A stretch of 43,107 bases of DNA, from contig JAGQIK010000074.1 in the NCBI GenBank assembly GCA_020431405.1, positions 1 through 43,107 on the forward strand, in the 5' to 3' direction. Positions 11,553 through 39,060 of this stretch are shown in pieces. The notes under the pieces were generated by a model that was not told where the DNA came from, did no database searches, and saw only the letters and a program-made list of their open reading frames with translations. Each line of letters opens with the position of its first letter. Position 1 is the first letter of the stretch. A program made the position numbers and the translations under genes. The stretch comes from Myxococcales bacterium. Its GTDB lineage: Bacteria > Myxococcota_A > Polyangia > GCA-2747355.

Positions 11553-11562
11553 GGTGCCGCTG

Positions 11563-11568
11563 ATGATA
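11563..11568 (-). promoter_or_regulatory. -10-like TATCAT, 10 nt before the ATG at 11552
   Basis: On the minus strand GCTATCAT is followed by 10 nt and the ATG. It could be an internal promoter for co-polymerase, kinase and lipoprotein. No Shine-Dalgarno is seen. Confidence 0.4.
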
Positions 11569-11622
11569 GCAGCATCCGAGGGTCGCAGCCCAGCCACTGA
11601 AAGCGGCCGAAGCGCAGGAAAC

Positions 11623-12765
<1,143 letters not shown>

Positions 12766-12827: not shown

Positions 12828-14066
12828 TTACGTGAAGAACGTGCCGGGCCGGCGCGGTCGCGCGATCTGCCGCTCGCCCTTGTAGTGCACCACCTCGGGC
12901 GGCGTGTCGTGGCCGAGGAACAACAGCGGGCTGGCGCTGTAGCTGTAGGCGCCGCAGTTGTTGAAGCAGATCAGGTCGCCGATCTCGGCGGCGGGCATCT
13001 CGATGTTGCGCGCCATGGAGTCGAGCGGCGTGCAGAGCGGCCCCACGACCTCGCACTTGCTCGCCGCGGCGTCGCTGTGGCTGAGGTTGAGCACCGGGTA
13101 GTTCTTCTTGACCAGCTGGCCGAAGTTGCCGGTGGCGGCGAAGCAGTGGTTCATGCCGCCGTCCATGATCACGAAGCGTTTGCCGCGTGTCTCCTTGATG
13201 TCGAGCACGCGCGTGACGTAGACGCCGAAGAAACCGATCATGTAGCGGCCGAGCTCGAAGAAGAACTGCGTGTCCTTGCAGCGCGGCTCATCGGCGACAA
13301 ATGCCTCGATGGTGGCGCCCGCCTCTTTGGACAGCGAGTCGACGTCCATCGCCTCCTGGCCGGGGAAGTAGGGCACGCCGAAGCCGCCGCCGAGGTTGAT
13401 GATCTCGGGCTTGATATCGTGCTCGCGGGCGATGCGCGCGCTGATGCTCAGCGTCTGCTTGAGGTTCTCGATGATCGAGGGCTGGTCGAGGCACTGCGTG
13501 CCCGAGAACACGTGGATGCCCTTGAGCTCGATCTCAGCGGCGTTCTTGGCGAGCTCCACCGTCGGATCGACATCTTCCTCGGGTACGCCGAACTGCGACG
13601 GGCGACCACCCATCTTCATGTTGAAGGCGTTGGGGATCGACAGCGGGTTGATGCGGATCGTGACGTTGATCCGCTTGCCCATCTCTTTGCAGATCGCGAT
13701 CAGCCGCGTGAGCTCGTTGTGCGACTCGATGCTGAGCAGGTGGATGTCGTTTTCCACCGCGCGGCGAAGCTCGTTGTCGGACTTGCCCGGGCCCGCGAAG
13801 CTCATCTGCTGCGGCGTGTAGCCCACGGCCGTCGCCAGATCGAGCTCGCCGATCGACGAGATATCGATGCCCGGCACGTGGTCTTTGAAGATCGACATCA
13901 CGCGCGGGTTGTTGTTGGCCTTGATGCAGTAATAGACGCCGACCTGCGAGGGCAGGTGCTTGGTGATCGCGTTGTAGTGCGCGACCGCCTGATCCATGTC
14001 GTAGAGATAAAACGGCGTGCCGTATTCGGCGGCCAGCTTGTCGAAATCAAACTTGGAGGTGTCCAT
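12828..14066 (-). CDS. PLP-dependent fold-III decarboxylase (ornithine/DAP decarboxylase family)
   Basis: A 412-residue cytoplasmic enzyme predicted to decarboxylate a basic or diamino acid with pyridoxal phosphate. Visible features are the Schiff-base lysine in YYCIKANNNP (K49), HVFSGTQ, the phosphate-binding GGGFGVPYF, ELGRYMIG, DGGMNHCFAATG and the active-site cysteine in VVGPLCTPLD. Fold-III decarboxylases also occur in exosortase-A-associated EPS loci together with an AMP-forming ligase and an ACP, both of which are encoded at 21.7-23.6 kb here; the substrate is not known there either. The ATG at 14066 has a TACGCT box 6 nt upstream and a hairpin behind it, so this gene probably has its own start of transcription. 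Confidence 0.88.
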   Translation of the reverse strand: MDTSKFDFDKLAAEYGTPFYLYDMDQAVAHYNAITKHLPSQVGVYYCIKANNNPRVMSIFKDHVPGIDISSIGELDLATAVGYTPQQMSFAGPGKSDNELRRAVENDIHLLSIESHNELTRLIAICKEMGKRINVTIRINPLSIPNAFNMKMGGRPSQFGVPEEDVDPTVELAKNAAEIELKGIHVFSGTQCLDQPSIIENLKQTLSISARIAREHDIKPEIINLGGGFGVPYFPGQEAMDVDSLSKEAGATIEAFVADEPRCKDTQFFFELGRYMIGFFGVYVTRVLDIKETRGKRFVIMDGGMNHCFAATGNFGQLVKKNYPVLNLSHSDAAASKCEVVGPLCTPLDSMARNIEMPAAEIGDLICFNNCGAYSYSASPLLFLGHDTPPEVVHYKGERQIARPRRPGTFFT

Positions 14067-14072
14067 CGGGCT

Positions 14073-14078
14073 AGCGTA
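14073..14078 (-). promoter_or_regulatory. -10-like TACGCT, 6 nt before the ATG at 14066
   Basis: On the minus strand TACGCT is followed by exactly 6 nt and the ATG, the same geometry as at both SGNH-like genes. A transcript would start at or next to the A of the ATG. Confidence 0.4.
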
Positions 14079-14088
14079 GCACGATGGC

Positions 14089-14107
14089 GGGCGGGTGTGA
14101 CCCGCCC
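14089..14107 (-). terminator. Perfect hairpin between glycosyltransferase and decarboxylase genes
   Basis: gggcgggt (14089-14096) and acccgccc (14100-14107) pair fully around GTG. It sits just after the glycosyltransferase stop and just before the TACGCT box, so it may separate two transcripts. No T-tract. Confidence 0.45.
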
Positions 14108-14119
14108 ACAGCTGCGCGC

Positions 14120-15118
14120 CTAGTACCCCTGCAGGTACTCTACGGTGGCTTTGGCGATGTTGTGGCGCAGCTGGTCGGTGCCGCCGAGCGACATGGCGTA
14201 TTGATAGCCATTTTCGGCGATGCGGTTGCGATACTCGTCGTCGGTCCAGGCGCGCGTGATCGCGTTCTTGAGCGCATCGACGTCGCCTGGCGGCACGATG
14301 ATGGCGTGCTTGTCGTTCTCGAGGATGCCGTCGACGGCCGGACAGTTGCTGATGATCACGCACTTCTTGAGCGCCATCGCCACCAGGTAGGCGCTGACGC
14401 CGGCCGGCGAGACGACGCCCTTCTTGACCGGCATGACGACCATCTTGGCGTCGGCGATGGTGCGGTTCCACGACTCGTTGGTGCCGTCGTCGTGGATCAG
14501 CTGCACGTGCGGCGGCAGCGTGTGGCCCGCGAAGTCGCTGCCGTGCTGGCGCTGCTCGTCAAGCTTGGGCGCGGTGATGCGCGTCGGGAAGCCCGCCGCC
14601 GAGACAGCGCGCGTGAACGTGTCGTAGTCACGGTGCGAGCGGCCGCCGGCCCAGATGTAGTCGCCGTCGATCTTGGCCATCGCCGAGAGCTTGTCGAAGT
14701 CGTTGACCTTGAACGGGATGTAGCGGCACTTCTCGGGCGGGATGCCGTAGTAGCGCTTGATGCCCGAGGTGTCCTTCATGAACAGCAGCAGCAGATCGGC
14801 CTGCTTGAGCAGCTGGCGATAGAGCTGCGCCTTGGCCTTCTGCATGAAGGTGTGCGGCGGCGGCAGGATCAAGTCCACCAGCACCAGCTTGGCCTTGTTG
14901 AAGGGCATCACCGCGCGCAGCGCACACAGCGTGCGCAGCTGCGAGTAGGGCGGCATGTCGAGCACGACCGCGTCGTACTTGTACGACGACAGCTGCAGCT
15001 GGACGCCGAGCGTCGGCGGGCTGGCCGGCAACGCCGAGAACGTGTGCTCGATGTGGGCGCCGTTGCCGAGGTCTGCCGGCAGCGTTTCGATATTGGAGAT
15101 GATGCGGTAGGTCGTCAC
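14120..15118 (-). CDS. Glycosyltransferase, GT-B fold (GT4-like)
   Basis: A 332-residue cytoplasmic glycosyltransferase, the second of only two in the window. The N-terminal half is diverged. The C-terminal donor domain shows IWAGGRSHRDYDTFTRAV near residue 176, MVVMPVKKGVVSPAGVSAYL near 247, with the Glu of the usual EX7E replaced, and VPPGDVDALKNAI near 294, which is typical of GT4 C-termini. The start is GTG at 15118 (GTGACG), 29 nt after the acyltransferase stop with a purine-rich GTGGAG close by. It is part of the minus-strand operon headed by the flippase. Donor and acceptor cannot be told. Confidence 0.8.
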   Translation of the reverse strand: MTTYRIISNIETLPADLGNGAHIEHTFSALPASPPTLGVQLQLSSYKYDAVVLDMPPYSQLRTLCALRAVMPFNKAKLVLVDLILPPPHTFMQKAKAQLYRQLLKQADLLLLFMKDTSGIKRYYGIPPEKCRYIPFKVNDFDKLSAMAKIDGDYIWAGGRSHRDYDTFTRAVSAAGFPTRITAPKLDEQRQHGSDFAGHTLPPHVQLIHDDGTNESWNRTIADAKMVVMPVKKGVVSPAGVSAYLVAMALKKCVIISNCPAVDGILENDKHAIIVPPGDVDALKNAITRAWTDDEYRNRIAENGYQYAMSLGGTDQLRHNIAKATVEYLQGY

Positions 15119-15147
15119 GGCTCCACGCCTCTCGTCGTCTCGTCGCC

Positions 15148-15882
15148 TTACTTCGCGGCTTCGGCCTTGGCGGCAGGGGCTGGCTCTTCGTCGCGCTTCA
15201 TGCGTTTTACGACGCGCGCTGGGTTGCCCATCACCACCGAGTCAGGTGGGATGTTGGAGCGAACCACCGAGCCGGCGCCGATCACCGAGCGCGCGCCGAT
15301 GCGCACGCCCTTGAGGATCACGCAGCTCTGCGCGATCTGCACCTGATCTTCGATGATCACCGGCGCGATGTCGTCCTCGCTGGCGGGCACCTCCCAGATC
15401 GGGCGATCGGGATCGTAGTTGCTGTGACCTTCGGTGTCGGTGATGAAGGTCGGGCCGCCGATGGCGACCAGGTTGCCGATCTCGACGCGCTGGCCGAGGC
15501 CGATCGCGATCTCGTGGCCGAAGAACACGCCGTTGCCGATCTTGAGCGTCGGCGGCGTGCCGTGCCCCGAGGGCATCACCACGAACGTGCCGCCAAAGCG
15601 GATGTCGTTGCCCAGCTCGATGTTGCAGGGGCCGGTGATGTACGGCAGCCGCTCGGCGACGATGTTGGTGCCGTGCGACGCGCACTGCGAGAGGAACATC
15701 GGCGTGGCGAACAGCGAGCGGCGACCCCACTCGAAGAACTCGCGCGCGAACCAGTTGAACTGGTAGAGGCTCGAGAAGAGCCAGCGGTTGCTCGCCGTCG
15801 GCTCGATGGTGTTGAAGACGAAGCGCTTGGCCAGCGGCCGCGCCACCTTGTACAGGCTATTGAACAGCTTTCCTTCGGCCAT
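15148..15882 (-). CDS. Hexapeptide-repeat acyltransferase (WbbJ/maltose acetyltransferase type)
   Basis: A 244-residue left-handed beta-helix acyltransferase likely to O-acetylate a sugar of the repeat unit with acetyl-CoA. The hexapeptide rungs run from about residue 75 to 215 (ELGNDIRFGG, LKIGNGVFFGHEIAIG, VIIEDQVQIAQSCVILKGV, ARSVIGAGSVV). The C-terminal end of the domain, VVMGNPARVVKRM, is the standard closing motif of this family. An unusual Ala/Glu/Pro tail follows. AGGA lies 5-8 nt before the ATG. It is 42 bp after the beta-helix gene in the same operon. Transfer of another acyl group, for instance from the ACP at 21686, is possible but there is no direct evidence. Confidence 0.85.
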   Translation of the reverse strand: MAEGKLFNSLYKVARPLAKRFVFNTIEPTASNRWLFSSLYQFNWFAREFFEWGRRSLFATPMFLSQCASHGTNIVAERLPYITGPCNIELGNDIRFGGTFVVMPSGHGTPPTLKIGNGVFFGHEIAIGLGQRVEIGNLVAIGGPTFITDTEGHSNYDPDRPIWEVPASEDDIAPVIIEDQVQIAQSCVILKGVRIGARSVIGAGSVVRSNIPPDSVVMGNPARVVKRMKRDEEPAPAAKAEAAK

Positions 15883-15924
15883 GTGTCCTCGTGTATCGGT
15901 GTGAGCTCACCGTGTCAATCGCCG

Positions 15925-17472
15925 TCACTTCGAGCGGCTCGCTTGTGCTGTACCGCCGTACACACCCATGTTGATGCGGTCGCCGTTGGGCGCGGTCTCC
16001 TCGGCGACGGGCGCCTTGGGATCGCCGCTGTCGATCGCGGGGCTGTGCTGCGCGTCTTTGACCCAGCTCTTGGCCTTGCCGTCCCAGCGTCCGCCCGTCG
16101 ACTTGAGGTGAAAGTCGCCGCCCGCCGCGTTGGCGAACATCGGGTCGACGAACAGCACACCCTCGCCGTAGTAGCGCTTCTGTTTGCCCTTGAGCTGCTC
16201 TTTGACGATGCTGTGCGTGACCTTGATCTTCGACGTCTTGTCGACCTCGAAGTCATCGCCGTCGTTGCCCCAGATGATGCTGCTCTTGATGACGGCTTCG
16301 GACTTGTGCTCGACGTAGACCGCCGCCTTGAAGCCCGTCTTGCAGGGGTGGTTGACGATGGTGCTGTTCATCACGAGCACCGTGGAGCCGGTGCCGTCGT
16401 CGGCGCCGTCGACGTAGAGCCCGCTGCCGCCGTCGCGCGCGCACTTGTTGGCGTAGATCAGCTCGTTGGCCATCGTCACGCGCGCGCCGTCGTCGATGAA
16501 CGTGCCCGAGCCGGCGCCGGTGGCGTGGTTGGCGGTGATGATGTTGCCGCGCATCGACGCCACGGTGCCCTTGTTGTAGACGAGGATGCCGCCGCCCCAG
16601 GCGCCTTCTTTCCACTGCACCTGGTTGCGCGCGATGTAGTTGCCGACGATCTCGATCGCCGGGCCCTCGACGTAGATGCCGCCGCCGTGATCGCCCACCG
16701 CGACGTTGCCGGTGACGACGTTGGCCTCGATGCGCACTTTGCCGCCGCTGGCCGCCAGCGCGCCGCGCCCTGACTTGTTGTCGCGCACGATGTTGAGCTT
16801 CACCGTCGCCTGGCACTTGTCGACGTAGATGCCGCCGCCAGCGCTCTCCTTGTTGTTGTGACCGGTGAAGATGTCGTTCTTCTCGACGACGTTGTGGCTG
16901 ATGGTGATCGTCGTCTGGCGCGCGTAGATGCCGCCGCCGAGGATGTAGTACTTCTTGTTGAGCTCGTTGCCGGTGCCCTTGGTGATCACGAAGCCGTCGA
17001 CGGCGCTGGTCTTGGCCTCGAGGAACGCCAGCGCAGCCTCGCCGCGCACGCCTTCGATGCGCGTGACGTTGGCTGCGGCGTCGCGGCTCTTGAAGTCATC
17101 CGAGAAGCCGCCGCGCAGCACGACGCCCTTCTCTTTGACGACGACGTTCTCTTTGTAGGTGCCGCCGGCGACCTGGATCGTCGCGCCGTCGGCGGCCGCG
17201 GCGACGGCAGCGCCGATGGTCTTGTGCTTGGCGCCGCCGCCGACGCACAGCACGCTGCCGCCGCAGGGCGCGACGGCGGTGTCGGCGCTCTTGAGGCCGG
17301 CGTTGGCGCCCGGCGACGACGGCGGCACCCAACCCTCGGCGCGCGGGGGCGTGGTCTTGTTGCGGACGGGCCGCTTCTGGTTCTTGGGCGGCTTCTTGAC
17401 CGTCTCGTTGCACGCGGTGCAGGCGAGCAGCGGGAGGACGAGCAGCAGCGTTGCGTGTCGGATGTTGAACAT
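15925..17472 (-). CDS. Right-handed parallel beta-helix lipoprotein
   Basis: A 515-residue secreted lipoprotein. The signal peptide MFNIRHATLLLVLPLLACTAC ends in a lipobox with Cys21; a Pro/Lys linker follows. PCGGSVLCVGGG and DGATIQVAGGTYKENVVV mark the start of a right-handed beta-helix of the kind found in polysaccharide lyases and pectinases, with repeated G-N-x-V/I rungs to about residue 440. It ends with an IDSGDPKAP / NMGVYGGTAQASRS block shared with the proteins at 35810 and 37423. No catalytic residues can be assigned; binding or cleaving the secreted polymer is plausible. It begins 3 nt after the DUF4091 gene stop inside the export operon. Confidence 0.85.
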   Translation of the reverse strand: MFNIRHATLLLVLPLLACTACNETVKKPPKNQKRPVRNKTTPPRAEGWVPPSSPGANAGLKSADTAVAPCGGSVLCVGGGAKHKTIGAAVAAAADGATIQVAGGTYKENVVVKEKGVVLRGGFSDDFKSRDAAANVTRIEGVRGEAALAFLEAKTSAVDGFVITKGTGNELNKKYYILGGGIYARQTTITISHNVVEKNDIFTGHNNKESAGGGIYVDKCQATVKLNIVRDNKSGRGALAASGGKVRIEANVVTGNVAVGDHGGGIYVEGPAIEIVGNYIARNQVQWKEGAWGGGILVYNKGTVASMRGNIITANHATGAGSGTFIDDGARVTMANELIYANKCARDGGSGLYVDGADDGTGSTVLVMNSTIVNHPCKTGFKAAVYVEHKSEAVIKSSIIWGNDGDDFEVDKTSKIKVTHSIVKEQLKGKQKRYYGEGVLFVDPMFANAAGGDFHLKSTGGRWDGKAKSWVKDAQHSPAIDSGDPKAPVAEETAPNGDRINMGVYGGTAQASRSK

Positions 17473-17475
17473 TCG

Positions 17476-19254
17476 TTACTTGTCGAGCAGGGCGAAGAGT
17501 TTGTCGCGCGCCGCCTCGAGCTTGGCGGGCGGCTGGTCACATTCGTAGGCGTGCGGGAACAGCTCGCGCGCGATGGCGAGCGCCTTGGCGCGGTCCTTCT
17601 TGGCGGCGAGCACGAGGTACTCGTAGTCCTCCATGCCCTCGCGCGTGAGCTTGATGCGGATCGAGCTTACCGGGATGTGTGACTTGCCGCCGATGATCTC
17701 GGGCTTGCCCGGGTAGTACATCGTGCCGTCGCCGGAGCCGCTGAACTTGCACTGGCCGTTGGGGTTCCAGGCGGTGCTGAGCTGCTCGGCGACCTCGAAG
17801 TAGAGCTCGGCTTTGATGTCGTTGAGGAAGGCGACCCACGGGAAGGCGCGGTTCTGCACGGCCTTGCTGTCGATGACGCGGTTGGGCCAGCCGTGGTCGC
17901 TCTTGTTGGTCGAGGGCTGACCGCACGCGCCGCAGCCGTGCGACATGCAGGACTGATAGCCCCACAGCGCGCGGTTAGACTTTTTTGCCATCCACTTCTT
18001 GTAGAGCGGCAGGCGGTTCTTGGGGCCGCCCTTCTCGTCGGAGGGGTGCGGCTCGACCTCGTTGATCACCGGCACGAAGACGTCGATGACCCCCGCGACG
18101 CCGTGCTTTTCGGAGTCGCCGATGGAGGCCGTCATCAAGACGCGCGCCTTGGGGTCGATCTTGTGCAGGCGCTCGGCGGCGGCCTTGAACTTGTCCCACT
18201 CGTGCTGCTCGCCCGGCTCGTCGACCGGGTAGTAGATCAGGCGGTCGTAGAAGTTGTAGCGCTTGGCGAAGGCGAGCCACTGCGCCAGCTTGTTGTTGCC
18301 GTCGAGGCGCACCGTGGTGACCTTGGCGCCCTTGAGCCGCGTCTTGCCCGTGCCGTCGAGAAAGCCACCCATGTGCTCGAGGAAGATCTTCTGACTGGCG
18401 CCGAACGGCGGCTGGAAGGCGAGGGTGAAGATCGTGAAGCGGTGGTCGAGCGCGCTGCGAACGTACAGCTCGCGCATGCGATAGGCGGCCTTCTCGCTCC
18501 AGTTCTTGTCGCAGCTGTCGGTGCCCGTGTGCGCCTTGCAGGGCTGCGCGTAGTCCATGTTGAACGCCGAGGCCAGCGACGCCGTGGAGGGCAGCGTGAA
18601 GTTGCCGACGTGGAGCGCGATGGGGATGCTGCCGGCCTTGCGCGTGCCGGCGAGCACGACGAGCTCGCCGCGGTAGTCGCCCGGCTTGGCGTTCATCGGC
18701 ACCAGCACGTCGACCCACACCATGCGCGACTGTTTTTCGCGCGCGATGATCGGAAAGGCGCGTCGCTTCTCGCCATAGAAGACGTCGACGTCGGGGATCA
18801 GCGGATCCGGCCACGGCCCAGCGCCGCCCTCGTTGTTGGAGGCGACCTTGACCGTGTAGTAGGTCTCGCGAAAGAGCGTGACGTTGGCCGGCGGGATGGT
18901 GGCGCCGCCAGGGCCGGTGAGCGGCTTGGAGAGCGCCAGCGAGAGGCCCGGGATGTTGCCCGACTTGGCGCTCAGCAGCACCTGGAAGGACTCGAACTCG
19001 TTGCGGCCGGCCTTGATGCGCGCACCCGGCGCCACCGCGACGACCTGGCTCGGCCGCACCTTAATATTAGGGCCCACCACGCCGTAGATCAGGCGCGAGC
19101 GCAGGGCCGCGTCGGCGAGCGGGAACGTCTTGCCGATCACGCTCGACGAGCCGCCACCGCCACCGCCGCCCGGACCGTTCGTTTTGGAAGGACAGGCGCA
19201 CGCCAGCGTGGCGAGCAGCGCGAGCGCCAGGGCGCTTCTCGGGTGAAGAGGCAT
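17476..19254 (-). CDS. DUF4091/GH123-like lipoprotein
   Basis: A 592-residue lipoprotein. The signal peptide MPLHPRSALALALLATLACAC gives a lipobox LACAC; a Gly/Ser linker follows. An N-terminal beta-sandwich (about 45-230) precedes a barrel with YYPVDEPGEQHEW near residue 340 (the DEP motif of GH123/DUF4091) and the closing motif SIRIKLTREGMEDYEYL near 546. A Cys-rich stretch (SCMSHGCGACGQPS) in the barrel is not shared with the two paralogues. The ATG overlaps the flippase stop by one base (TGATG), so they are translationally coupled. It is likely anchored in the outer membrane or periplasm and acts on the polysaccharide made by this operon; substrate unknown. Confidence 0.85.
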   Translation of the reverse strand: MPLHPRSALALALLATLACACPSKTNGPGGGGGGGSSSVIGKTFPLADAALRSRLIYGVVGPNIKVRPSQVVAVAPGARIKAGRNEFESFQVLLSAKSGNIPGLSLALSKPLTGPGGATIPPANVTLFRETYYTVKVASNNEGGAGPWPDPLIPDVDVFYGEKRRAFPIIAREKQSRMVWVDVLVPMNAKPGDYRGELVVLAGTRKAGSIPIALHVGNFTLPSTASLASAFNMDYAQPCKAHTGTDSCDKNWSEKAAYRMRELYVRSALDHRFTIFTLAFQPPFGASQKIFLEHMGGFLDGTGKTRLKGAKVTTVRLDGNNKLAQWLAFAKRYNFYDRLIYYPVDEPGEQHEWDKFKAAAERLHKIDPKARVLMTASIGDSEKHGVAGVIDVFVPVINEVEPHPSDEKGGPKNRLPLYKKWMAKKSNRALWGYQSCMSHGCGACGQPSTNKSDHGWPNRVIDSKAVQNRAFPWVAFLNDIKAELYFEVAEQLSTAWNPNGQCKFSGSGDGTMYYPGKPEIIGGKSHIPVSSIRIKLTREGMEDYEYLVLAAKKDRAKALAIARELFPHAYECDQPPAKLEAARDKLFALLDK

Positions 19255-20906
19255 CAGCTCTTGTCGGGTTCCTTCTTGTCGTCGTCGTCGTCGGCCTTCG
19301 GCGCGTCGTCGTCGGCTTTCGGCTCGTCGGTCTCGGCTTCGGCCTTCGGCGCGTCGCCTTCGCCCTCGGCGCGCTCGCCTTCGCCCTCTTCGCCCTCTTC
19401 GCCCTCTTCCTCGTCCTCGCCACCACCGCCGCGACGCAGGATCGCCGTCTTGACCAGGCGCAGGAACTCGCGGCTGACCGTCGGCGCCAGCACCAGCGCC
19501 GAAGGCACGAACACGATGGCGCCGATGCCGACCTCGGCGATGAGCACCACCACGCGCAGGAACTTGCTCGGGCCGCCAGCCCAGCCGATCTGCATGAACA
19601 GGTAGTGCGAGCCGATCACCGCCGCCGCCATCGGAACGCAGGCAAACAGCGGCGGGATCATGCCCCACGTCAGCTTGCGCATGGAGATGTTGGCCGCCGA
19701 GCGCGCCATCCACAAAGACAGGATCGCGTTGGCGCCGAAGGCGATGCCCGGCGCGGCGCAGGTCCACAGCGGCCCGAAGCGCTGCAGCACCACGATGCTC
19801 AGCAGCAGCATGCCGATCTTGGTGATCTCGAGCATCATCACCGTGCGCGGCCGATTGAGCACCTGCAGGAACGAGTTGACCGTCCAGCCGATGGGGCGCA
19901 CCACCGACAGCGTCGAGAGCACCGCGACCATCGGCCACATCGAAGCCCACTCCTCGTTGAAGATCGCGGTGGTCAGCGCGTTGGCGACCGATCCGAGGCC
20001 GACGGCGAGCGGAAACATCACCAGCGCCAGCAGCGCGCTGGCGCGGATCAGCGCCTGACCGCGCTCCTCGTCGTCCATGCGCGCGAACGACGGCAGCAGC
20101 ACGTCGCCGATGTGCTCGCCGACGGTGGTCGCCGGGATGTCAGCGAGGTTGTAGGCGAGCGCGTACTGGCCGGCGGTCGCCGAGCCGAAGTAGCGCGCCA
20201 TCAACAGGTTGTCCCAGGTGCGCGCGAACGAGCCCGCCGCGTGGCCGACGGCGAGCGGCACGCCGAAGGCGAAGATCTTCTTCGTCAGATCCATCGAGAG
20301 CTTGTGCGGCTTGAGCCACTCGCTCCACTTCACGGCGAGCGCCATCCAGATGAACGACACGCCCCACTGCCCGATGTTGCCCCACACGATGGCGTAGCCG
20401 CCGAAGTTCTGCATGGCGAGCACGACGCCGAGGGCGGCGTACAGAAACTGCGCCGCGCTGCTCGAAGCGGCGATGGTGCGAAAGCGCAGGTCGCGCGCGA
20501 GGATGCGTTCAGGACCGGTGGCGATGCGTTCGATGGCGAGCACCGCTGCCATGCCGGGGATGTACTTGACGGCGCCCTTGGAACCGAAGAACGGCACGAT
20601 CTGGCGCCGGAAGACGACCACCGCGGCGAGCGCCGGCAAGCCGATGCCGAGGTGATAGACCGTGCAGTGCCACGCCGCGATGGCACCAGAGGCGGGCTTG
20701 GCGACGATGTAATTGAAGATGCCGAATCGCGTCAGCTCGTCCACCGTGATGACGATGGCGCTGGCGACGGCCGACACGTCACCGTAGTCGGCCTTGGCGA
20801 TATAGCGAGTGAGCACCAGTGTGGCGACCACGCCGATGACGCGGCCGCCGACACTGCTCAAGATCGTCCAGGCGGCTCCGCGAACCGCCTTGTGTCCGAT
20901 CGACAT
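19254..20906 (-). CDS. wzx: Polysaccharide flippase (Wzx type) with acidic C-terminal tail
   Basis: A 550-residue inner-membrane protein of the MOP/Wzx family that should flip undecaprenyl-linked repeat units to the periplasm. It has 12 or more hydrophobic helices, starting with AAWTILSSVGGRVIGVVATL, and the family stretch GGYAIVWGNIGQWGVSFIW. After the last helix (about residue 490) it carries about 58 residues that are almost entirely Glu, Asp, Gly, Lys, Ala and Pro (GEDEEEGEEGEEGEGE, then repeated PKADDD), which is not normal for Wzx. The ATG has GAGGAA 9 nt upstream. It is the first gene of the long minus-strand operon and divergent from the OPX gene. Confidence 0.88.
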   Translation of the reverse strand: MSIGHKAVRGAAWTILSSVGGRVIGVVATLVLTRYIAKADYGDVSAVASAIVITVDELTRFGIFNYIVAKPASGAIAAWHCTVYHLGIGLPALAAVVVFRRQIVPFFGSKGAVKYIPGMAAVLAIERIATGPERILARDLRFRTIAASSSAAQFLYAALGVVLAMQNFGGYAIVWGNIGQWGVSFIWMALAVKWSEWLKPHKLSMDLTKKIFAFGVPLAVGHAAGSFARTWDNLLMARYFGSATAGQYALAYNLADIPATTVGEHIGDVLLPSFARMDDEERGQALIRASALLALVMFPLAVGLGSVANALTTAIFNEEWASMWPMVAVLSTLSVVRPIGWTVNSFLQVLNRPRTVMMLEITKIGMLLLSIVVLQRFGPLWTCAAPGIAFGANAILSLWMARSAANISMRKLTWGMIPPLFACVPMAAAVIGSHYLFMQIGWAGGPSKFLRVVVLIAEVGIGAIVFVPSALVLAPTVSREFLRLVKTAILRRGGGGEDEEEGEEGEEGEGERAEGEGDAPKAEAETDEPKADDDAPKADDDDDKKEPDKS

Positions 20907-21059
20907 GCGTATTGATTCCTCGGGTTGCTCGCAGGACAGCGAAGGAGCGAAAACGGTATCACAAACGCGCGATTTTGGACTAGCGGGGTCGTGCGTCCTT
21001 CGTTAGCCTACGACCCTTCATTGAATGTAGTTTCACGCCCAAAGCAGGATTTCGATCTG
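20907..21059. promoter_or_regulatory. Divergent control region between flippase and OPX genes
   Basis: These 153 bp must hold the promoters of both export operons. A dyad gggtcgt (20986-20992) / acgaccc (21010-21016) with 17 bp between the arms, and a wider pair cgaagga (20940-20946) / tccttcg (20996-21002), are candidate operators. No -10/-35 pair is convincing by eye. Confidence 0.35.
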
Positions 21060-21665
21060 ATGAGCAAGCTACGCCTCTCTGCGGTTCTCATCGCCGCGCT
21101 GCTGTTGCTGTCTGCCTGCCCCGCGCCGGTCTGCAACTACAACTACAAGCGCGAACCGGATCCGCGTAAGCCTGGCGCCGAATACCAGATCGGCATCGGC
21201 GACAGCTTGCGCATCAACGTCTGGAAGAACCAGGACCTCTCGACACCGGCGATCGTGCGCCCCGACGGCACGATCACCATGGCGCTGATCGGCGACATCA
21301 AGGCGGCCGGGCGCCATCCGTCGCAGCTCAAGGCCGAGATCTCGATGCGCCTGAAGAAGTTCCTCGCCACCGTGCCCCCGGTGACCATCGCGGTCGATCA
21401 GGTGCGCAGCTACCGCTTCACCGTCAGCGGTCAGGTGGCGCGCGGCGGACAGTTCTCGCCCAACAAGTACGTCACCGTCAGCGAGGCCATCGCGCTGGCG
21501 CAGGGCATGACGCGCTTTGCCGACGCCGACAACACGGTGCTGATCCGCGTGCGCGCCAACGGCAAGATCACGCGCATCCCCATCTGTTGGAAACAGATCG
21601 AGCTCGGCAAGCGCCCAGACATGGACATCGTGATGCTCGCCGGCGACCGTTTGCACGTTCCCTAA
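21060..21665 (+). CDS. Short Wza-like polysaccharide export (OPX) lipoprotein
   Basis: A 201-residue periplasmic export protein. The ATG at 21060 gives a signal peptide with lipobox LLSAC (Cys20). Residues 42-113 form the Poly_export (PES) domain (YQIGIGDSLRINVWKN, IVRPDGTITM, VPPVTIAV) and 119-199 an SLBB domain closing with LAGDRLHVP. It ends there: there is no further SLBB domain and no C-terminal amphipathic helix, which forms the outer-membrane pore in E. coli Wza. Composite translocons made of such a short OPX plus a separate beta-barrel are known from Myxococcus xanthus; the barrel at 6479 is the candidate partner. It heads an operon with the ACP (20 bp later) and ligase genes. Confidence 0.88.
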   Translation: MSKLRLSAVLIAALLLLSACPAPVCNYNYKREPDPRKPGAEYQIGIGDSLRINVWKNQDLSTPAIVRPDGTITMALIGDIKAAGRHPSQLKAEISMRLKKFLATVPPVTIAVDQVRSYRFTVSGQVARGGQFSPNKYVTVSEAIALAQGMTRFADADNTVLIRVRANGKITRIPICWKQIELGKRPDMDIVMLAGDRLHVP

Positions 21666-21685
21666 GCCGCGAAAGGCCCACACAC

Positions 21686-21937
21686 ATGTCTGACGACACC
21701 CGTACACAGGTCCGCGAATTCATCCTGATGAACTTCCTCGACGGCGGCGATGACTCGCAGCTGAAGGACGACGTGTCGCTCGAGCGCGCTCACATCGTCG
21801 ACTCGGCGCGCGCCCTCGAGATGATCCTCTTCATCGAGGACACCTTTGGTTTCGAGGTCGACAACGAAGACGCGACGCCGGAGAACTTCGACTCCGTCAA
21901 CGCCATCGTCGCCTACGTCGAGCGCAAGAAGGGCTAA
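21686..21937 (+). CDS. Acyl carrier protein
   Basis: An 83-residue acyl/aminoacyl carrier protein. Ser40 in AHIVDSARALEMILFIEDTF is at the phosphopantetheine attachment site (DS[LA] followed by a helix rich in hydrophobic residues and an EDxFG-like end); the rest is the usual four-helix pattern. It lies 20 bp after the OPX gene and 22 bp before the AMP-forming ligase gene. It should be activated by a phosphopantetheinyl transferase such as that at 27722 and loaded by the ligase. The close coupling with an export gene argues for a role in modifying the polysaccharide rather than in fatty-acid synthesis. Confidence 0.88.
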   Translation: MSDDTRTQVREFILMNFLDGGDDSQLKDDVSLERAHIVDSARALEMILFIEDTFGFEVDNEDATPENFDSVNAIVAYVERKKG

Positions 21938-21959
21938 GGCCCGAGCGGGAGCCACGCAC

Positions 21960-23564: not shown

Positions 23565-23565
23565 T

Positions 23566-23719
23566 CGGGGTCACTCTCCGATCTCCAACCTCCCGATTTC
23601 CAACGGCGCATAGACCACAATGACATTTCCGCTTACCGGAAATGTCCGGTATGCGGAAATGTCAATGCGGTCTATACGCGCCGCAGTTTCCACGCGTTGC
23701 GAGTTGGAGAGTGACCCCG
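23566..23719. repeat. 154-bp symmetric palindromic element (MITE-like)
   Basis: Two 75-nt arms (23566-23640 and 23645-23719) flank AATG. The outer 14 bp (cggggtcactctcc and its complement) match exactly, the inner 31 bp of each arm match with three differences, and the 30 bp between are diverged but equally long. The centre holds three copies of CGGAAATGTC or its complement. It starts 1 nt after the ligase stop and ends 6 nt before the TACAAT box of the SGNH-like gene. No transposase, no clear target-site duplication and no second copy in this window. Could be a miniature transposable element, a REP-like repeat or a very large bidirectional terminator. Confidence 0.7.
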
Positions 23720-23725
23720 TTGGGC

Positions 23726-23731
23726 TACAAT
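23726..23731 (+). promoter_or_regulatory. -10-like TACAAT, 6 nt before the ATG at 23738
   Basis: GGCTACAATGT precedes the start codon with exactly 6 nt between hexamer and ATG, identical in geometry and sequence context to the paralogue at 28446. A TTGGAG at 23704-23709, inside the palindromic element, could be the -35 (16 bp spacing). Confidence 0.5.
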
Positions 23732-23737
23732 GTGTGC

Positions 23738-25441
23738 ATGCGGCTTATTCGGTGTGCCGTGTGCACCGCGCTGCTGCTCGGGTTGAGCGGTGGGGCGGCG
23801 CACGCGCAGTTTGTTGATTTTCTGAAGTCTTCCGGCGAGACGCTCGAGTCACACACGGGCCTTTGGTTCGGCACGTGGATGACGAGCAACACGCCCAAGC
23901 TGCCCATCGAGACGCTCACGCGTGCCACCAAGGAAGCCGTTACCGGCGGCGTGGCGCTCAAGGTCATCGCGCGGCCAGGCTCCATCGGGCGCATCTCGTA
24001 CGAGCACGAGCGCGGCGCGACGTTCTCGCCGGCGATCCTGACGTTCTACGCCAAGGCCTCGCGCAACGTGTCGCTGCGCGTGTTCCGCTCGACCATCCCG
24101 GCGACGACCGTGGTGCAGCTGACGACCCAGTGGCAGAAGTTCAACATCGACACCACCGGCAAAGCCATCGACTGGCTCCTGACGTTCGAGCTGGCGCAGG
24201 CCGCCTCGCAAGAGACGTCGTACATCATCGATCGTGTCGGCCTCGAATCGACAGCCTCGCCGCAGAACCTCGGCGGCGCCACCACGGGCCCCGATCAGGA
24301 CCTCTCCACGTCGGCGCTGGTGCTCGGTGCGAGCAACGTCTCGGCCATCGCACAGAAGCTCAACAACAAGCAGCCCTTCAAGATCGTCTCGCTCGGCGAC
24401 GGTGTGATGGAAGGGCTGCAGATGGATCTCGGCAACGGCTACTCGTGGACGCGCGCGATCAAAGACAACTACGTCTACCCGGCTGTGCTCGGGCAGATGC
24501 TTCGCGCCGACTACGGCTACCCCAACGTCACGGTCAACAACTTCGGCGGCTACGTCTACACGGCCGCCGACGCGATCTCGCAAAACTCCGTGCAGACCTT
24601 GCTCGCGCCGCAGCTGTCCGCCGGCGACCTCGTGATCCTCGAGCTCGGCCGCAACGACCTCGTCGACGGCGCCAGCATCGCGACCTTCAAGTCGCGCGTG
24701 AAGACGCTCATCGGCCAGATCAAGGCGCTCGGCGTGACCAACATCATCTACGCCGGTCTGACCATGACGCAGGGGCTCGCCTCGCAGAGCGCCGCGATCC
24801 GCCAGACGCTGCAGCAGCTGGTCACCGAAGAGAACATCGCGGTGCTCGATCTGACGCAGTACGCGCTGTTTCGCGGGGTGGCGTTTTCGTGGGCCGACTC
24901 GGCCAACCAGTCACACCCCGACGCCTCGGGGCACATGTTCATCGCCAAGATGCTGACCACGATCTTCAGCGGTCAGCATTTCAACGTCGTCAACGTGCCG
25001 CCCGTCACCACCAATCCGCAGCCAGACAGCGGCCCCGGCCCCAGCGACGGCGGCGTCAACCCCGGCAGCGACGGCGGCGTCAATCCGGGCAGCGACGGCG
25101 GCAGCAATCCCGGCAGTGACGGCGGCACCAATTCGGGCAGCGACGGCGGCACCAATCCCGGCAGCGATGGTGGCGTCAATCCCGGCAGTGACGGCGGCGT
25201 CAATCCGGGCAGCGATGGCGGCGTCAATCCGGGCAGCGACGGCGGCGTCAACCCCGTCGGCGACGGCGGCGGCAACGGCAGCTTCGACGTTGGCTTCAAC
25301 CCCAACCCGCCCAACGCCGACGGCGAGTCGGGCGGCGGCTGCTGCGCCATCGGCGCGACCTCGCCGACGGCAACTCCGATCCTCGTCCTGCTGGCGCTGG
25401 CGCTGCTGCTGGGCAGCGCGCGCCGCCGCCGCCGGCGCTGA
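23738..25441 (+). CDS. SGNH-like surface protein, copy 1, with MYXO-CTERM-like tail
   Basis: A 567-residue secreted protein. Residues 1-24 are a signal peptide (ending AHAQ). About 35-170 is a beta-sandwich resembling a carbohydrate-binding module. About 195-410 is an SGNH/GDSL-like hydrolase domain: block I reads SLGDGVMEG with Gly222 where the nucleophilic Ser belongs, block III ELGRND is intact, and the histidine block is DSANQSHPDASGH. A linker of nine GSDGGVNP-type repeats follows, then FDVGFNPNPPNADG, a Cys pair (GGGCCAIG), a hydrophobic helix and six Arg. An in-frame earlier ATG inside the palindromic element is rejected. Probably a surface-anchored glycan-binding or non-classical esterase-like protein. 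Confidence 0.85.
   Translation: MRLIRCAVCTALLLGLSGGAAHAQFVDFLKSSGETLESHTGLWFGTWMTSNTPKLPIETLTRATKEAVTGGVALKVIARPGSIGRISYEHERGATFSPAILTFYAKASRNVSLRVFRSTIPATTVVQLTTQWQKFNIDTTGKAIDWLLTFELAQAASQETSYIIDRVGLESTASPQNLGGATTGPDQDLSTSALVLGASNVSAIAQKLNNKQPFKIVSLGDGVMEGLQMDLGNGYSWTRAIKDNYVYPAVLGQMLRADYGYPNVTVNNFGGYVYTAADAISQNSVQTLLAPQLSAGDLVILELGRNDLVDGASIATFKSRVKTLIGQIKALGVTNIIYAGLTMTQGLASQSAAIRQTLQQLVTEENIAVLDLTQYALFRGVAFSWADSANQSHPDASGHMFIAKMLTTIFSGQHFNVVNVPPVTTNPQPDSGPGPSDGGVNPGSDGGVNPGSDGGSNPGSDGGTNSGSDGGTNPGSDGGVNPGSDGGVNPGSDGGVNPGSDGGVNPVGDGGGNGSFDVGFNPNPPNADGESGGGCCAIGATSPTATPILVLLALALLLGSARRRRRR
25041..25256 (+). repeat. 24-bp tandem repeats encoding GSDGGVNP linkers
   Basis: Nine 24-bp units encode GSDGG[VST]NP between the SGNH domain and the sorting tail. 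Near-identical units are open to slippage, which would only change linker length. Confidence 0.8.
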
Positions 25442-25495
25442 TCGTCAGCGCGCGAGCACGCCAAGAAAACGCGCGCACCGCGAGTAGTACAGGCA

Positions 25496-26665
25496 ATGCA
25501 CCCGCGCTGTCTCGTGCTCGCCACCCTGTGTTGCTCGCTCTGCGCGGCGTGTAGCAACTCGCGGCTTGGCGAGCAGTCGGCGACAAAGTCTGCTGCGAGC
25601 CGCCACGAGCCGCGCCTGATCTGGCGCCGCGGCCTCACGCGCGGCGGCCCGTTCGACGTGCCGCCGGCAAAGGAGCGCGAGATCGACCGCCAATGGCGCC
25701 ACGGGCGCTGCGGCGATCCCCCCAAGACGCCGTACTCGCCGGCGTGGCTGGCCCTCGAGAAGCGCTTTCGCTGGACCCATCGGCTCGATCGCTACGGCGC
25801 GCGCTATCACCACATCGCGCGTTCGTCCGACGGACGTGCGCTCTACGCCACCGGCGTGTCCGAGCTGGTCGGCGTCATCACCCGCCTCGACGACAAGGGG
25901 CGCGTGCTGTGGCGCCATCGCTTCGGCGAGGCAAAGCCCAAAGGCCCAGACCCCGCTGCGACCTCCTGGGCGCGCGGCAAGCACGTCGCCGTCTCGCCCG
26001 ATGGCAAGACCGTCGCGCTGGCAGGCTCCTTCTGGGAGCGCGCCGATATCGCGCCCGGGCCGGCCATAGCCATAGCGCAGGCCGCCGGACGCGCAGACCT
26101 CTTCGTCGCCGCCATGCGCAGCGACGGCAAGTTCCTCTGGGCACGCGCTTACAGCGGCACCGAAGAGAACGCACAGATCCGCGTGGCCATCGGCGCCGAC
26201 GGCAACGTGGTGGTCGCCGCGACGTTCGCCGGCGCGATCCGCCTCTGTGGCCGGCGCACCGTGCGGCCGACGCGTCGCTCGGATGTCTTCGTCACGAAGT
26301 TGCGCGCACGCGACGGCCGCTGCCTGTGGGCCAAGACGTGGGCGCCGAAAGAGCCCGCGACTGTCGACAACGTGTTCGTCGACAAAAGCGGCGCCGTGGT
26401 CGCGATGGTCGACGTGCCGCCCGAGCGCGTAGCGCTGCGATACCTCGCCGACGGCAGCGTTGACGCGCGCAGGCACGCGTCGCCTCCCCGACGCGCGCAC
26501 GCGGCCCCGTCCGAGCGCTTGCCCGCCAGCGAAGGCGGTCTCGAGGTCAAGGACGCGCTCGTGCTCGGTGCAGGGGTCGTTGTCGCTGGCGCGTTCAAGT
26601 GCTTGGTGGTCGGGCAGCACTTTCCGCGCGAAGATCCGCGCGGTCTTATCGGGCTGCTGAGGTGA
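25496..26665 (+). CDS. Beta-propeller-like lipoprotein
   Basis: A 389-residue lipoprotein of unknown function. The signal peptide MHPRCLVLATLCCSLCAAC ends in a lipobox with Cys19. The mature protein has repeated blocks of the type VAVSPDGKTVALAGSF, VAAMRSDGKFLWARAYSG, VAIGADGNVVVAATFAG and FVDKSGAVVAMVDV, as in WD/SBBP-like propellers of secreted proteins, with about six blades. It ends with little downstream of the last blade. Only 54 bp separate it from the SGNH-like gene in the same orientation. A long reading frame on the opposite strand (25445-26806) is a GC-bias shadow, since this strand has the signal peptide and the blade motifs. Confidence 0.75.
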   Translation: MHPRCLVLATLCCSLCAACSNSRLGEQSATKSAASRHEPRLIWRRGLTRGGPFDVPPAKEREIDRQWRHGRCGDPPKTPYSPAWLALEKRFRWTHRLDRYGARYHHIARSSDGRALYATGVSELVGVITRLDDKGRVLWRHRFGEAKPKGPDPAATSWARGKHVAVSPDGKTVALAGSFWERADIAPGPAIAIAQAAGRADLFVAAMRSDGKFLWARAYSGTEENAQIRVAIGADGNVVVAATFAGAIRLCGRRTVRPTRRSDVFVTKLRARDGRCLWAKTWAPKEPATVDNVFVDKSGAVVAMVDVPPERVALRYLADGSVDARRHASPPRRAHAAPSERLPASEGGLEVKDALVLGAGVVVAGAFKCLVVGQHFPREDPRGLIGLLR

Positions 26666-26716
26666 GCGGCTAGCCGAGCGGTGGGGGGATTGTTGCGCCG
26701 CCCGCGTGCCGTCGCG

Positions 26717-26722
26717 TATCGT
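26717..26722 (+). promoter_or_regulatory. -10-like TATCGT, 10 nt before the ATG at 26733
   Basis: TATCGT is followed by 10 nt without Shine-Dalgarno and the ATG, as at 3181. Confidence 0.35.
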
Positions 26723-26732
26723 GCCTCGCAGC

Positions 26733-27710
26733 ATGTCCAGCAAAACTCGCGGTCGCACGCTCGCCATCCTGATCGTAGGGATGATCCTCGGTGCCGGCGC
26801 CGGCATCGTCTTCTACAAGCGCGGAATGCCGTTTGTCGGCGTGACGGGCCAGTGGGGCGTCGGCATCTACGTCGGCACGGGGCCTGACAAGCCTTTCACG
26901 CCGGGCAACATCAAAAACCCCGTCCTGACGATCAAAGACGTCACCGACATGGACGCCGACTTTGTCGCCGACCCCTTCATGGTCAAGGAAGGCGACACCT
27001 GGTACCTGTTCGTCGAGGTCCTCAACAACGCCGACGGCAAGGGCGATCTGTCGGTGGCGACGAGCAAGGACGGCATCCACTTCAAGTACCAAAAGAAGGT
27101 GCTCGACGAGAAGTTCCACCTCTCCTATCCGCACGTCATGAAGTGGAAGGGGCAGTGGTGGATGGTGCCCGAGTCCTACGAGGACAAGTCCATTCGCCTC
27201 TACAGAGCGACCAAGTTCCCCTTCGAGTGGAAGCTGCACAAGAAGCTCGTCACCGGCGCGCCGTTTGTCGACTCGTCGCTGATCGAGCACGACGGCAAGT
27301 GGTGGATGTGGTCGTCGATCACCGGCAACAACGTGCTGGTGCTCTACTACGCCGACGCGCTCGACGGGACGTGGCACAAACATCCGCAGAACCCGCTGCG
27401 CCTCGGCGATCCCGAGTACGCGCGCCCCGGCGGCCCGATCGTCAAGTACAACGGCCGGCTGATCCGCTACGCGCAGGACTGTTTCCCGCGTTACGGCATG
27501 GCGATCCGCGCCTTCGAGGTGACGAAGCTGACGACCACCGAGTACGCCGAGAAGCTGCTCAACGACGGCAAGCCGCTGATCGGCGCCACCGGCAGCGGCT
27601 GGAACGCGCTCGGCATGCACCAGCTCGACCCGCATCAGATCGCGCCTGGCAAGTGGATCGCCGCCGTCGACGGCATCTACAACGCGCGCCGCTACGGGCT
27701 CGCGTACTAG
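26733..27710 (+). CDS. Membrane-anchored five-bladed propeller, GINT1-N-like
   Basis: A 325-residue protein with an N-terminal membrane anchor at about residues 7-28 (TLAILIVGMILGAGAGIVFY) and a five-bladed beta-propeller of the GH43/GH32 superfold. The pattern FVADPFMVKEGDTWYLFVEV, LSYPHVMKWKGQWWMVPES, PFVDSSLIEHDGKWWMW, ARPGGPIVKYNGRLIRYAQD and RYGMAIRAFEV resembles the N-terminal domain of glucosamine inositolphosphorylceramide transferase-like proteins, which in bacteria also occurs in polysaccharide clusters. Activity is not established for that domain; binding or trimming a glycan in the periplasm is likely. The ATG is chosen by the adjacent TATCGT box and the anchor. It is followed by the PPTase gene after 11 bp. 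Confidence 0.7.
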   Translation: MSSKTRGRTLAILIVGMILGAGAGIVFYKRGMPFVGVTGQWGVGIYVGTGPDKPFTPGNIKNPVLTIKDVTDMDADFVADPFMVKEGDTWYLFVEVLNNADGKGDLSVATSKDGIHFKYQKKVLDEKFHLSYPHVMKWKGQWWMVPESYEDKSIRLYRATKFPFEWKLHKKLVTGAPFVDSSLIEHDGKWWMWSSITGNNVLVLYYADALDGTWHKHPQNPLRLGDPEYARPGGPIVKYNGRLIRYAQDCFPRYGMAIRAFEVTKLTTTEYAEKLLNDGKPLIGATGSGWNALGMHQLDPHQIAPGKWIAAVDGIYNARRYGLAY

Positions 27711-27721
27711 CGAACGGGCGC

Positions 27722-28390
27722 TTGGCCGACCGCGCGCAGCTCGAAGCGCTCTTTCCTGCCGCGGCTGTGCTCGTCGTCGCCGACGCGTGGATGTGGGAAG
27801 GCTTCGACCAGCTCTTTGACGAAGAGCGCGCGCTCGGCGAACGCGCCGTACAGAAGCGCCGCCGCGAGCTCGCCGCCGGCCGACACGCGGCGCGCGCCGC
27901 GCTCGAGCAGCTCGGCTACGCGCCCGCGCCGATCGCGCGCGGCACGCACGGCATGCCGCAGTGGCCCGCCGGCGCCTGCGGCAGCATCACGCACTGCAAG
28001 GGCTTCGCCGGCGCCGTCGTCGCGCACGCGCGCGAGGTGCGCTCGCTCGGCTTCGACGCCGAGCAAGCCGAGCCGCTCAAGCCGCAGCTCATCGATCTGA
28101 TCCTCTCTGCCAGCGAGCGCGCCGCGCTCGGCCCGCAGCCGCGCCGCACCGACTGGGGCAAGGTCGCCTTCAGCTGCAAAGAGGCGTTCTACAAGGCCTA
28201 CTACCCGCACGCGCGCCAGGTGATCGATTTTCTGCAGGTGCACATCGAGCTCACCTCCGGCGCCGATGCTGGCGAGTTTCGCATCGAGCTCGTCGACGAC
28301 GCCGTGCCGAGCGCCGCGGGCCTGCGCCGCTTCGAGGGCCGCTGGCTGTGTGACGGAGATCGCGTTTATTCGGCCTGCGCGGTGCTGTAG
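27722..28390 (+). CDS. 4'-phosphopantetheinyl transferase (Sfp/EntD type)
   Basis: A 222-residue enzyme that should transfer phosphopantetheine from CoA to a carrier-protein serine, most simply Ser40 of the ACP at 21686. Family motifs are GSITHCKGFAGAVVA near residue 88, SLGFDAEQAEPL near 108 (metal-binding Asp112 and Glu114) and KVAFSCKEAFYKAYYP near 147 (Lys153, Glu154, Lys158). The length matches EntD-like enzymes. No ATG is available near the proper N-terminus; TTG at 27722 is the best start, 11 bp after the preceding gene, and the exact start is uncertain. It is cotranscribed with the GINT1-N-like gene. Confidence 0.85.
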   Translation: MADRAQLEALFPAAAVLVVADAWMWEGFDQLFDEERALGERAVQKRRRELAAGRHAARAALEQLGYAPAPIARGTHGMPQWPAGACGSITHCKGFAGAVVAHAREVRSLGFDAEQAEPLKPQLIDLILSASERAALGPQPRRTDWGKVAFSCKEAFYKAYYPHARQVIDFLQVHIELTSGADAGEFRIELVDDAVPSAAGLRRFEGRWLCDGDRVYSACAVL

Positions 28391-28445
28391 CGCGCCTTTG
28401 ACGTGCTTTCCGCGCGCCAGCCCTGTTGCAGCGCGAATCTGCGGC

Positions 28446-28451
28446 TACAAT
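28446..28451 (+). promoter_or_regulatory. -10-like TACAAT, 6 nt before the ATG at 28458
   Basis: GCGGCTACAATGT sits in the same position as at the first SGNH-like gene. The rest of the upstream sequences differ, so the box seems selectively kept. Confidence 0.5.
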
Positions 28452-28457
28452 GTAGGG

Positions 28458-30058: not shown

Positions 30059-30062
<4 letters not shown>
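28458..30062 (+). CDS. SGNH-like surface protein, copy 2, with MYXO-CTERM-like tail
   Basis: A 534-residue paralogue of the protein at 23738, colinear from the signal peptide (ending AHAQ, residue 24) through the carbohydrate-binding-like sandwich and the SGNH domain. It has the same Ser-to-Gly change (SLGDGVMEG, Gly222), ELGRND and DSANPSHPHAAGH. The linker differs: Gly-rich GGDGPGGG units replace GSDGGVNP, while FDVGFNPNPPNADG, the CC pair (GGGCCAIG), the helix and the Arg6 end are kept. Its stop codon overlaps that of the convergent DUF4091 gene by 4 bp. Two independent copies keeping the missing nucleophile argue for a real, non-classical function. Confidence 0.85.
29745..29872 (+). repeat. 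24-bp Gly-rich tandem repeats in the linker of copy 2
   Basis: About five imperfect 24-bp units encode GGDGPGGG. The repeat length equals that of copy 1 but the sequence is different, pointing to independent expansion or replacement of the linker. Confidence 0.65.
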
Positions 30063-37351: not shown

Positions 37352-37422
37352 GCACCGATGATCGTGGCTCCGCTGCCCGTAGCTTCGCTGCCCGCTTTCA
37401 CTCGCCGCCCCCGTCTGTCACC

Positions 37423-39060
<1,638 letters not shown>

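Follow-up and report, generated by a model that had tools for sequence, protein, structure and literature searches.

RESULTS

A carrier-protein gene set within an exopolysaccharide export locus

The stretch of DNA analyzed here (the window; 43,107 nucleotides) is one entire contig (JAGQIK010000074.1, C388 in our numbering) of the 11.2-Mb, 95.7% complete assembly GCA_020431405.1 from a Myxococcales bacterium, which was grouped with Myxococcota in our phylum-level searches. It carries an exopolysaccharide (EPS) export locus that includes genes for a fold-III pyridoxal 5'-phosphate (PLP) decarboxylase, an acyl carrier protein (ACP), and an AMP-forming ligase. As described below, the similarities of these three proteins (the trio) suggest that they load an acidic amino acid onto the ACP and decarboxylate it there.

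An earlier note on this DNA had proposed that a carrier-protein branch for amino acid activation is built into the export locus, and the gene coordinates agree with the layout it described. The genes for an outer-membrane polysaccharide export (OPX) protein, the ACP (with Ser40), and the ligase form one operon with gaps of 20 and 22 bp, respectively. The decarboxylase gene belongs to the divergent export cluster, and a gene for an Sfp-type 4'-phosphopantetheinyl transferase (PPTase), which the note had placed about 4 kb away, begins 4.1 kb beyond the ligase gene. All four enzyme and carrier genes are supported as coding by GC content at the codon positions, including third positions (GC3), and by family matches. 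The E values of the family scan (1e-122 for the decarboxylase and 1e-139 for the ligase) are far beyond chance. The raw open reading frame of the decarboxylase, which reaches position 14471, is overlong, and the raw start of the ligase frame (TTG at 21846) is too early. Therefore, the gene boundaries in Table 1 differ from those frames. The minus-strand run consists of genes for the flippase Wzx, a GH123-like protein, a beta-helix lipoprotein, an acyltransferase, a glycosyltransferase, the decarboxylase, an unannotated protein, Wzz, and an ATPase resembling bacterial tyrosine kinases (BY-kinases).

Table 1. Genes of the trio and the surrounding export locus
Feature	Position	Strand	Basis
Fold-III PLP decarboxylase, BtrK/VinO type; predicted to act on aminoacyl-ACP	12828-14066	-	BtrK is best solved relative; CTPxD motif; TIGR03099 below cutoff
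Stand-alone acyl/aminoacyl carrier protein (ACP), 83 aa, Ser40	21686-21937	+	D-S-A motif; carrier-protein matches below cutoff
AMP-forming ligase, VinN clade, predicted acidic-amino-acid:ACP ligase, 534 aa	21960-23564	+	VinN core match; residue triad; core tree
OPX lipoprotein (outer-membrane polysaccharide export), leads the ACP-ligase operon	21060-21665	+	PF02563; SLBB; TIGR03027 112.9 bits (cutoff 180)
Hexapeptide-repeat acyltransferase, predicted aminoacyl transferase	15148-15882	-	PF00132; WbbJ-like
Sfp-type PPTase	27704-28390	+	PF17837; PF01648
Glycosyltransferase (GT4-like), between acyltransferase and decarboxylase	14120-15118	-	PF00534
Wzx-type flippase, divergent from OPX	19254-20906	-	PF13440; NF007773
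Wzz/polysaccharide copolymerase (PCP) chain-length protein	10023-11597	-	TIGR03007 125.8 bits, below cutoff
BY-kinase-like ATPase (CpsD type)	8985-10010	-	PF13614
Unannotated conserved EPS-locus protein	11623-12765	-	No NCBIfam/Pfam match; relatives elsewhere

The ligase is predicted to activate an acidic amino acid

A search with the whole ligase matched many adenylate-forming enzymes. When the substrate-binding core (residues 189 to 413) was compared with all PDB sequences, VinN (3wv4/3wvn) scored 132 bits and the next enzyme, 4-coumarate:coenzyme A (CoA) ligase, scored 78 bits. The substrate of VinN is 3-methylaspartate, which it activates at the side-chain carboxylate; Asp230 reads the alpha-amino group of this substrate, and Ser299 and Arg331 read its alpha-carboxylate (PMC7756342, PMC11284099). 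Residues D227, T296, and R328 of the window ligase align with these three positions, with Ser replaced by Thr at 296. Furthermore, VinN falls within the clade of the window ligase in a tree of the core region, with a support of 0.70 for its grouping with the window group and 0.90 one node deeper.

Comparisons based on an AlphaFold2 (AF2) model of the ligase gave a mixed result. VIA-align placed VinN near the top of its ranking, level with FACL13, and the structural alignment had an offset of about +3 where the aligned range ends, which carries positions 227, 296, and 328 to VinN 230, 299, and 331 and matches the sequence assignment. Foldseek ranked CoA ligases first and did not list VinN in its top 50. 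The fold alone does not decide between VinN and CoA ligases, but the residue triad and the core sequence do.

The triad (D-[ST]-R) is present in 78 of the 83 complete ligases encoded near a related decarboxylase. One exception (L055) had been scored on its second ligase, and the ligase of its trio carries the triad as a 79th case. The four remaining exceptions (L027, L030, L032, and L082) coincide exactly with the loci that have decarboxylases grouping with BtrK in the tree. None of the 10 other adenylate-forming enzymes of the window's genome has the triad. A ligase paralog in this genome (G000:C300:8611-10170; L033, L046), which is encoded near an ACP-containing protein, is 32% identical and lacks the triad Arg.

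These results bear on the proposal that the ligase and ACP serve fatty acid or lipid metabolism. The superfamily resemblance is consistent with such a role, as is the score of the ACP against an ornithine-lipid ACP model (54 of 130 bits), but an amino-acid recognition triad and a core match in which VinN is well ahead of the CoA ligases make it very improbable. Instead, the ligase is most likely of the VinN type and is predicted to activate an acidic amino acid, with L-aspartate favored, at its side-chain carboxylate. The VinN structures were solved with L-aspartate and 3-methylaspartate (PDB). A search of the genome for the E subunit of glutamate mutase, the source of 3-methylaspartate, found none, and that substrate is therefore unlikely. 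This leaves L-aspartate, converted to beta-alanyl-ACP, as the simplest choice, with glutamate and a gamma-aminobutyric acid (GABA) product as the other possibility. A ligase that reads both the alpha-amino and the alpha-carboxyl groups would fit a pathway whose next enzyme takes that carboxyl off, a coherence that we infer from homology.

The decarboxylase resembles enzymes that act on carrier-bound amino acids

The best solved relative of the decarboxylase is BtrK (286 bits), and the next PDB group scores 189 bits. Its motif GPLCTPLDS is of the BtrK type (GPLCTPxD) and not of the diaminopimelate decarboxylase (DapDC) type (GPICESxD). Both VinO and BtrK remove carboxyl groups from amino acids that are bound to a carrier (PMC11284099, PMC7756342), and the likeness of the window enzyme is by sequence for BtrK and by description for VinO. 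By this analogy, the decarboxylase is predicted to act on an ACP-bound amino acid.

We rejected assignment of the enzyme as a diaminopimelate decarboxylase (LysA), since its score against TIGR01048 (250.7 bits) is below the cutoff (297.9) and the CESxD motif is missing. The same two observations weigh against a broader alternative, in which the decarboxylase would use free diaminopimelate, lysine, or ornithine to make a diamine independently of the ACP and ligase. Membership in the superfamily shared with DapDC and ornithine decarboxylase, together with the TIGR01048 score itself, speaks for this alternative. However, the genome encodes another, more DapDC-like protein with the motif GPICESGD (L130), and the adjacency of the decarboxylase to the ligase and ACP is conserved. 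We consider use of a free amino acid improbable.

A closer alternative is that the same machinery loads L-glutamate through its gamma-carboxyl group to make GABA-ACP, as in butirosin biosynthesis. BtrK is named L-glutamyl-[BtrI ACP] decarboxylase in the PDB, which points in this direction. On the other side, the window ligase belongs to the clade of VinN, with its aspartate-type ligands, and the triad is missing from the BtrK-clade ligases. For these reasons, glutamate is an unlikely substrate, though one to be taken seriously.

The trio is conserved in other genomes, often with export genes

From a larger list of hits, we examined the 80 best-matching decarboxylase loci that belong to named genomes; these cover beta-, alpha-, and gammaproteobacteria, Actinobacteria, Rubrobacter, Paenibacillus, Myxococcota, and other groups. 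In 78 of these loci, a ligase gene lies within 6 kb of the decarboxylase gene, and an ACP was also recognized in 56, counts that are conditional on the choice of loci by decarboxylase similarity and are phylogenetically nonindependent. One or more of the OPX, Wzz, kinase, and Wzx genes occur in the stretch in 31 of 80 loci, and two or more of OPX, Wzz, and kinase occur in 18, which are mostly from sphingomonads. A decarboxylase match at an E value of 1e-90 or less is present in 12 of 379 Myxococcota genomes.

The earlier note would have given up its proposal if relatives showed no conserved linkage with OPX or flippase genes. Such linkage is present. A Wzz gene is divergent from decarboxylase, ACP, and ligase genes in L050; a Wzz fragment, decarboxylase, ACP, Wzx, and OPX genes occur together in L025; and a run of acyltransferase, decarboxylase, ACP, and ligase genes with a homolog of the unannotated protein lies about 10 kb from Wzx in L024/L172. 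In sphingomonad loci, the trio is accompanied by OPX, Wzz, and kinase genes. This conserved linkage upholds the placement of an amino acid activation branch in an EPS export locus.

The linkage also bears on the idea that the aminoacyl-ACP supplies a small molecule, as a starter unit like those of polyketide synthases (PKS) or nonribosomal peptide synthetases (NRPS), with the EPS genes as mere neighbors. In the VinN/VinL/VinO precedent, the product is a polyketide starter (PMC11284099), and NRPS/PKS-type carrier domains are present elsewhere in the genome. Nevertheless, the ACP and ligase genes share the tightly spaced OPX operon, no PKS or NRPS genes were seen among the window proteins examined, and the trio lies beside Wzz, Wzx, or OPX genes in relatives. 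A small-molecule role is thus rather unlikely.

A second set with a VinN-triad ligase (LIG2) comprises a ligase, an ACP, an AsnB-type amidotransferase, and often a NadE-like protein, mostly without a decarboxylase (L043 6215-8770, L166, L167, L170, L203 from Sinorhizobium meliloti pSymB, and L204; also on rhizobial plasmids). Because of its other ACP, its AsnB-type enzyme, and the usual lack of a decarboxylase, we treat it as separate from the trio. LIG2-type ligases were counted in 20 of 379 Myxococcota genomes, a tally that includes the window's own ligase and that of G350.

The carrier protein and its possible priming enzyme

The ACP has below-cutoff matches to several carrier-protein families and to solved peptidyl and acyl carrier protein structures. 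It was not among the matches of a whole-genome search with PF00550, and we therefore conclude that Pfam misses it. ACPs with 55 to 70% identity adjoin the decarboxylase in relatives.

The window PPTase could in principle prime the ACP. However, the view of the earlier note that it is a member of the set did not hold up, since no PPTase match lies near the trio in the loci of relatives and one of the other PPTase hits in the genome (three in total, including the window's) is also of Sfp size. The start of the PPTase gene is overlapped by a gene for a protein with a GINT1_N domain (glucosamine inositolphosphorylceramide transferase N-terminal; 26706-27710). Near-duplicate SGNH-hydrolase-like proteins with MYXO-CTERM-like C termini are encoded on either side of this 25- to 28-kb region, at 23642-25441 and 28266-30062.

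A candidate transferase and a proposed pathway

The hexapeptide acyltransferase, which the earlier note had not singled out, is our best candidate for moving the aminoacyl group to a sugar. Orthologs with 52 to 57% identity occur in 5 of 379 Myxococcota genomes, four of which have a close decarboxylase. This co-occurrence has a hypergeometric P value of about 3e-6 against the 12 decarboxylase genomes and 3e-8 against the five close ones, uncorrected for relatedness. The ortholog abuts the decarboxylase-ACP pair in L023, L024, and L026, and a single glycosyltransferase gene intervenes in the window. A plasmid search with the acyltransferase gave no match. Hexapeptide transferases that accept acyl groups from ACP exist, with LpxA and LpxD as examples. 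The acyltransferase-decarboxylase-ACP sets of L023 and L026 are not part of an EPS locus; each is followed by a pair of LolD/LolE-like ABC (ATP-binding cassette) transporter genes.

The unannotated protein has no Pfam or NCBIfam match at 0.001 and carries an HLHHD motif. Homologs are present in 33 of 379 Myxococcota genomes, and a 57% identical protein is encoded beside the trio in L024. Its AF2 model, made without an alignment, has a pLDDT (predicted local distance difference test) of 33. Perhaps it is an undescribed polysaccharide-modifying enzyme. Elsewhere in the window are three paralogous beta-helix lipoprotein-like proteins (15925-17472, 35810-37351, and 36853-39060).

We propose the following pathway. 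The ligase would activate an acidic amino acid, most probably L-aspartate, at its side-chain carboxylate and load it onto the phosphopantetheine at Ser40 of the ACP. Loss of the free alpha-carboxylate, catalyzed by the decarboxylase while the amino acid is still on the carrier, would leave beta-alanyl-S-ACP or a similar omega-aminoacyl group. This amine-bearing group would then be moved to a sugar in the EPS repeat unit by a transferase, for which the hexapeptide acyltransferase is the most likely candidate, ahead of flipping by Wzx and export through OPX, and the polymer would presumably gain positive charge.

Several observations count against this pathway. The D-[ST]-R triad cannot tell Asp from Glu, and in the window the ligase and decarboxylase genes are split over two divergent operons. 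Acetyl-CoA is the usual donor of hexapeptide transferases. In one genome (G231), the acyltransferase is present but a decarboxylase match is not, which argues against strict coupling. No acyltransferase lies beside the trio in L050, where the contig is short, or in L025, where the contig begins. Lastly, the acyltransferase-decarboxylase-ACP sets of G045 and G148 are not in an EPS locus, and only a paralogous ligase was found. On balance, aspartate loading, decarboxylation on the carrier, and transfer of a beta-alanyl group to an EPS sugar is the reading we favor, at about an even chance of being correct in full.

DISCUSSION

The trio has long been annotated as exosortase associated with its task unexplained, and the shared triad and BtrK motif turn it into a specific and cheaply testable prediction. 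We found no paper in the open-licence literature that assigns this task. A broader and more tentative proposal, which we hold to be somewhat doubtful, is that the EPS-locus trio at large, including that of exosortase-A loci, is a specialized source of omega-aminoacyl (beta-alanyl-type) carrier thioesters for decorating exported polysaccharides with amines, a widespread chemistry not yet assigned. If so, many environmental bacteria put amines on their matrix polysaccharides by using the enzymology of macrolactam antibiotics, and these amines would change matrix charge and adhesion as well as the formation of flocs or biofilms.

Comparison with known systems

The exosortase-A (XrtA) trio (TIGR03098, TIGR03099, and an ACP) has the same three genes, and its enzymes form sister clades with the same D-[ST]-R triad. 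However, the window ligase differs in its core (TECKR/TNTAAAL versus TEAFR/TNSGG) and scores 466.6 against TIGR03098 (cutoff 592.35), and the decarboxylase scores 409.6 against TIGR03099 (cutoff 478.45), whereas a true XrtA-type pair (L073) reaches 809 and 630 bits. The 95.7% complete genome has no match to the exosortase family PF09721. These sequence comparisons indicate that the window trio is akin to the exosortase-A trio but is not a member, contrary to the identity suggested in the earlier note. They also make it highly unlikely that the trio is part of an exosortase-A (PEP-CTERM) system making a group for sorted surface proteins, despite the XrtA-associated names of its top NCBIfam matches and the MYXO-CTERM-like C termini of neighboring proteins. 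Moreover, a true XrtA-type trio on Sinorhizobium meliloti pSymB lies among glycosyltransferase genes, and the stretch shown has no annotated exosortase. The related suggestion of a small molecule attached to surface proteins likewise found no support.

D-Alanylation by DltA/DltC and glycylation by AlmE/AlmF/AlmG use an adenylation enzyme, a carrier, and a transferase to decorate an envelope polymer. The likeness of the window set to these systems is at the level of how they work, they have no decarboxylation step, and DltA is a distant match to the ligase core (about 50 to 59 bits versus 132 for VinN). The earlier note drew an analogy to DltA/DltC, but the nearest logic is that of VinN-VinL-VinO and BtrI-BtrK, in which a decarboxylase acts on a carrier-bound amino acid (PMC11284099).

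With the BtrI-BtrK system of butirosin, the window set shares the decarboxylase type, BtrK being its nearest solved protein and CTPxD being common to both. Butirosin biosynthesis loads glutamate with a different type of ligase, the ATP-grasp enzyme BtrJ. With VinN-VinL-VinO, the set shares a ligase clade with its recognition triad, a stand-alone ACP, and a fold-III PLP decarboxylase expected to act on an ACP-bound acidic amino acid (PMC11284099). It differs in that no VinM or VinK equivalents or PKS were noticed nearby, no glutamate mutase for 3-methylaspartate was found in the genome, and the genes are part of an EPS export locus that also holds a candidate acyltransferase. Judged by these homologies, the enzymology of the window set is a variation on a known theme in an unexplained setting.

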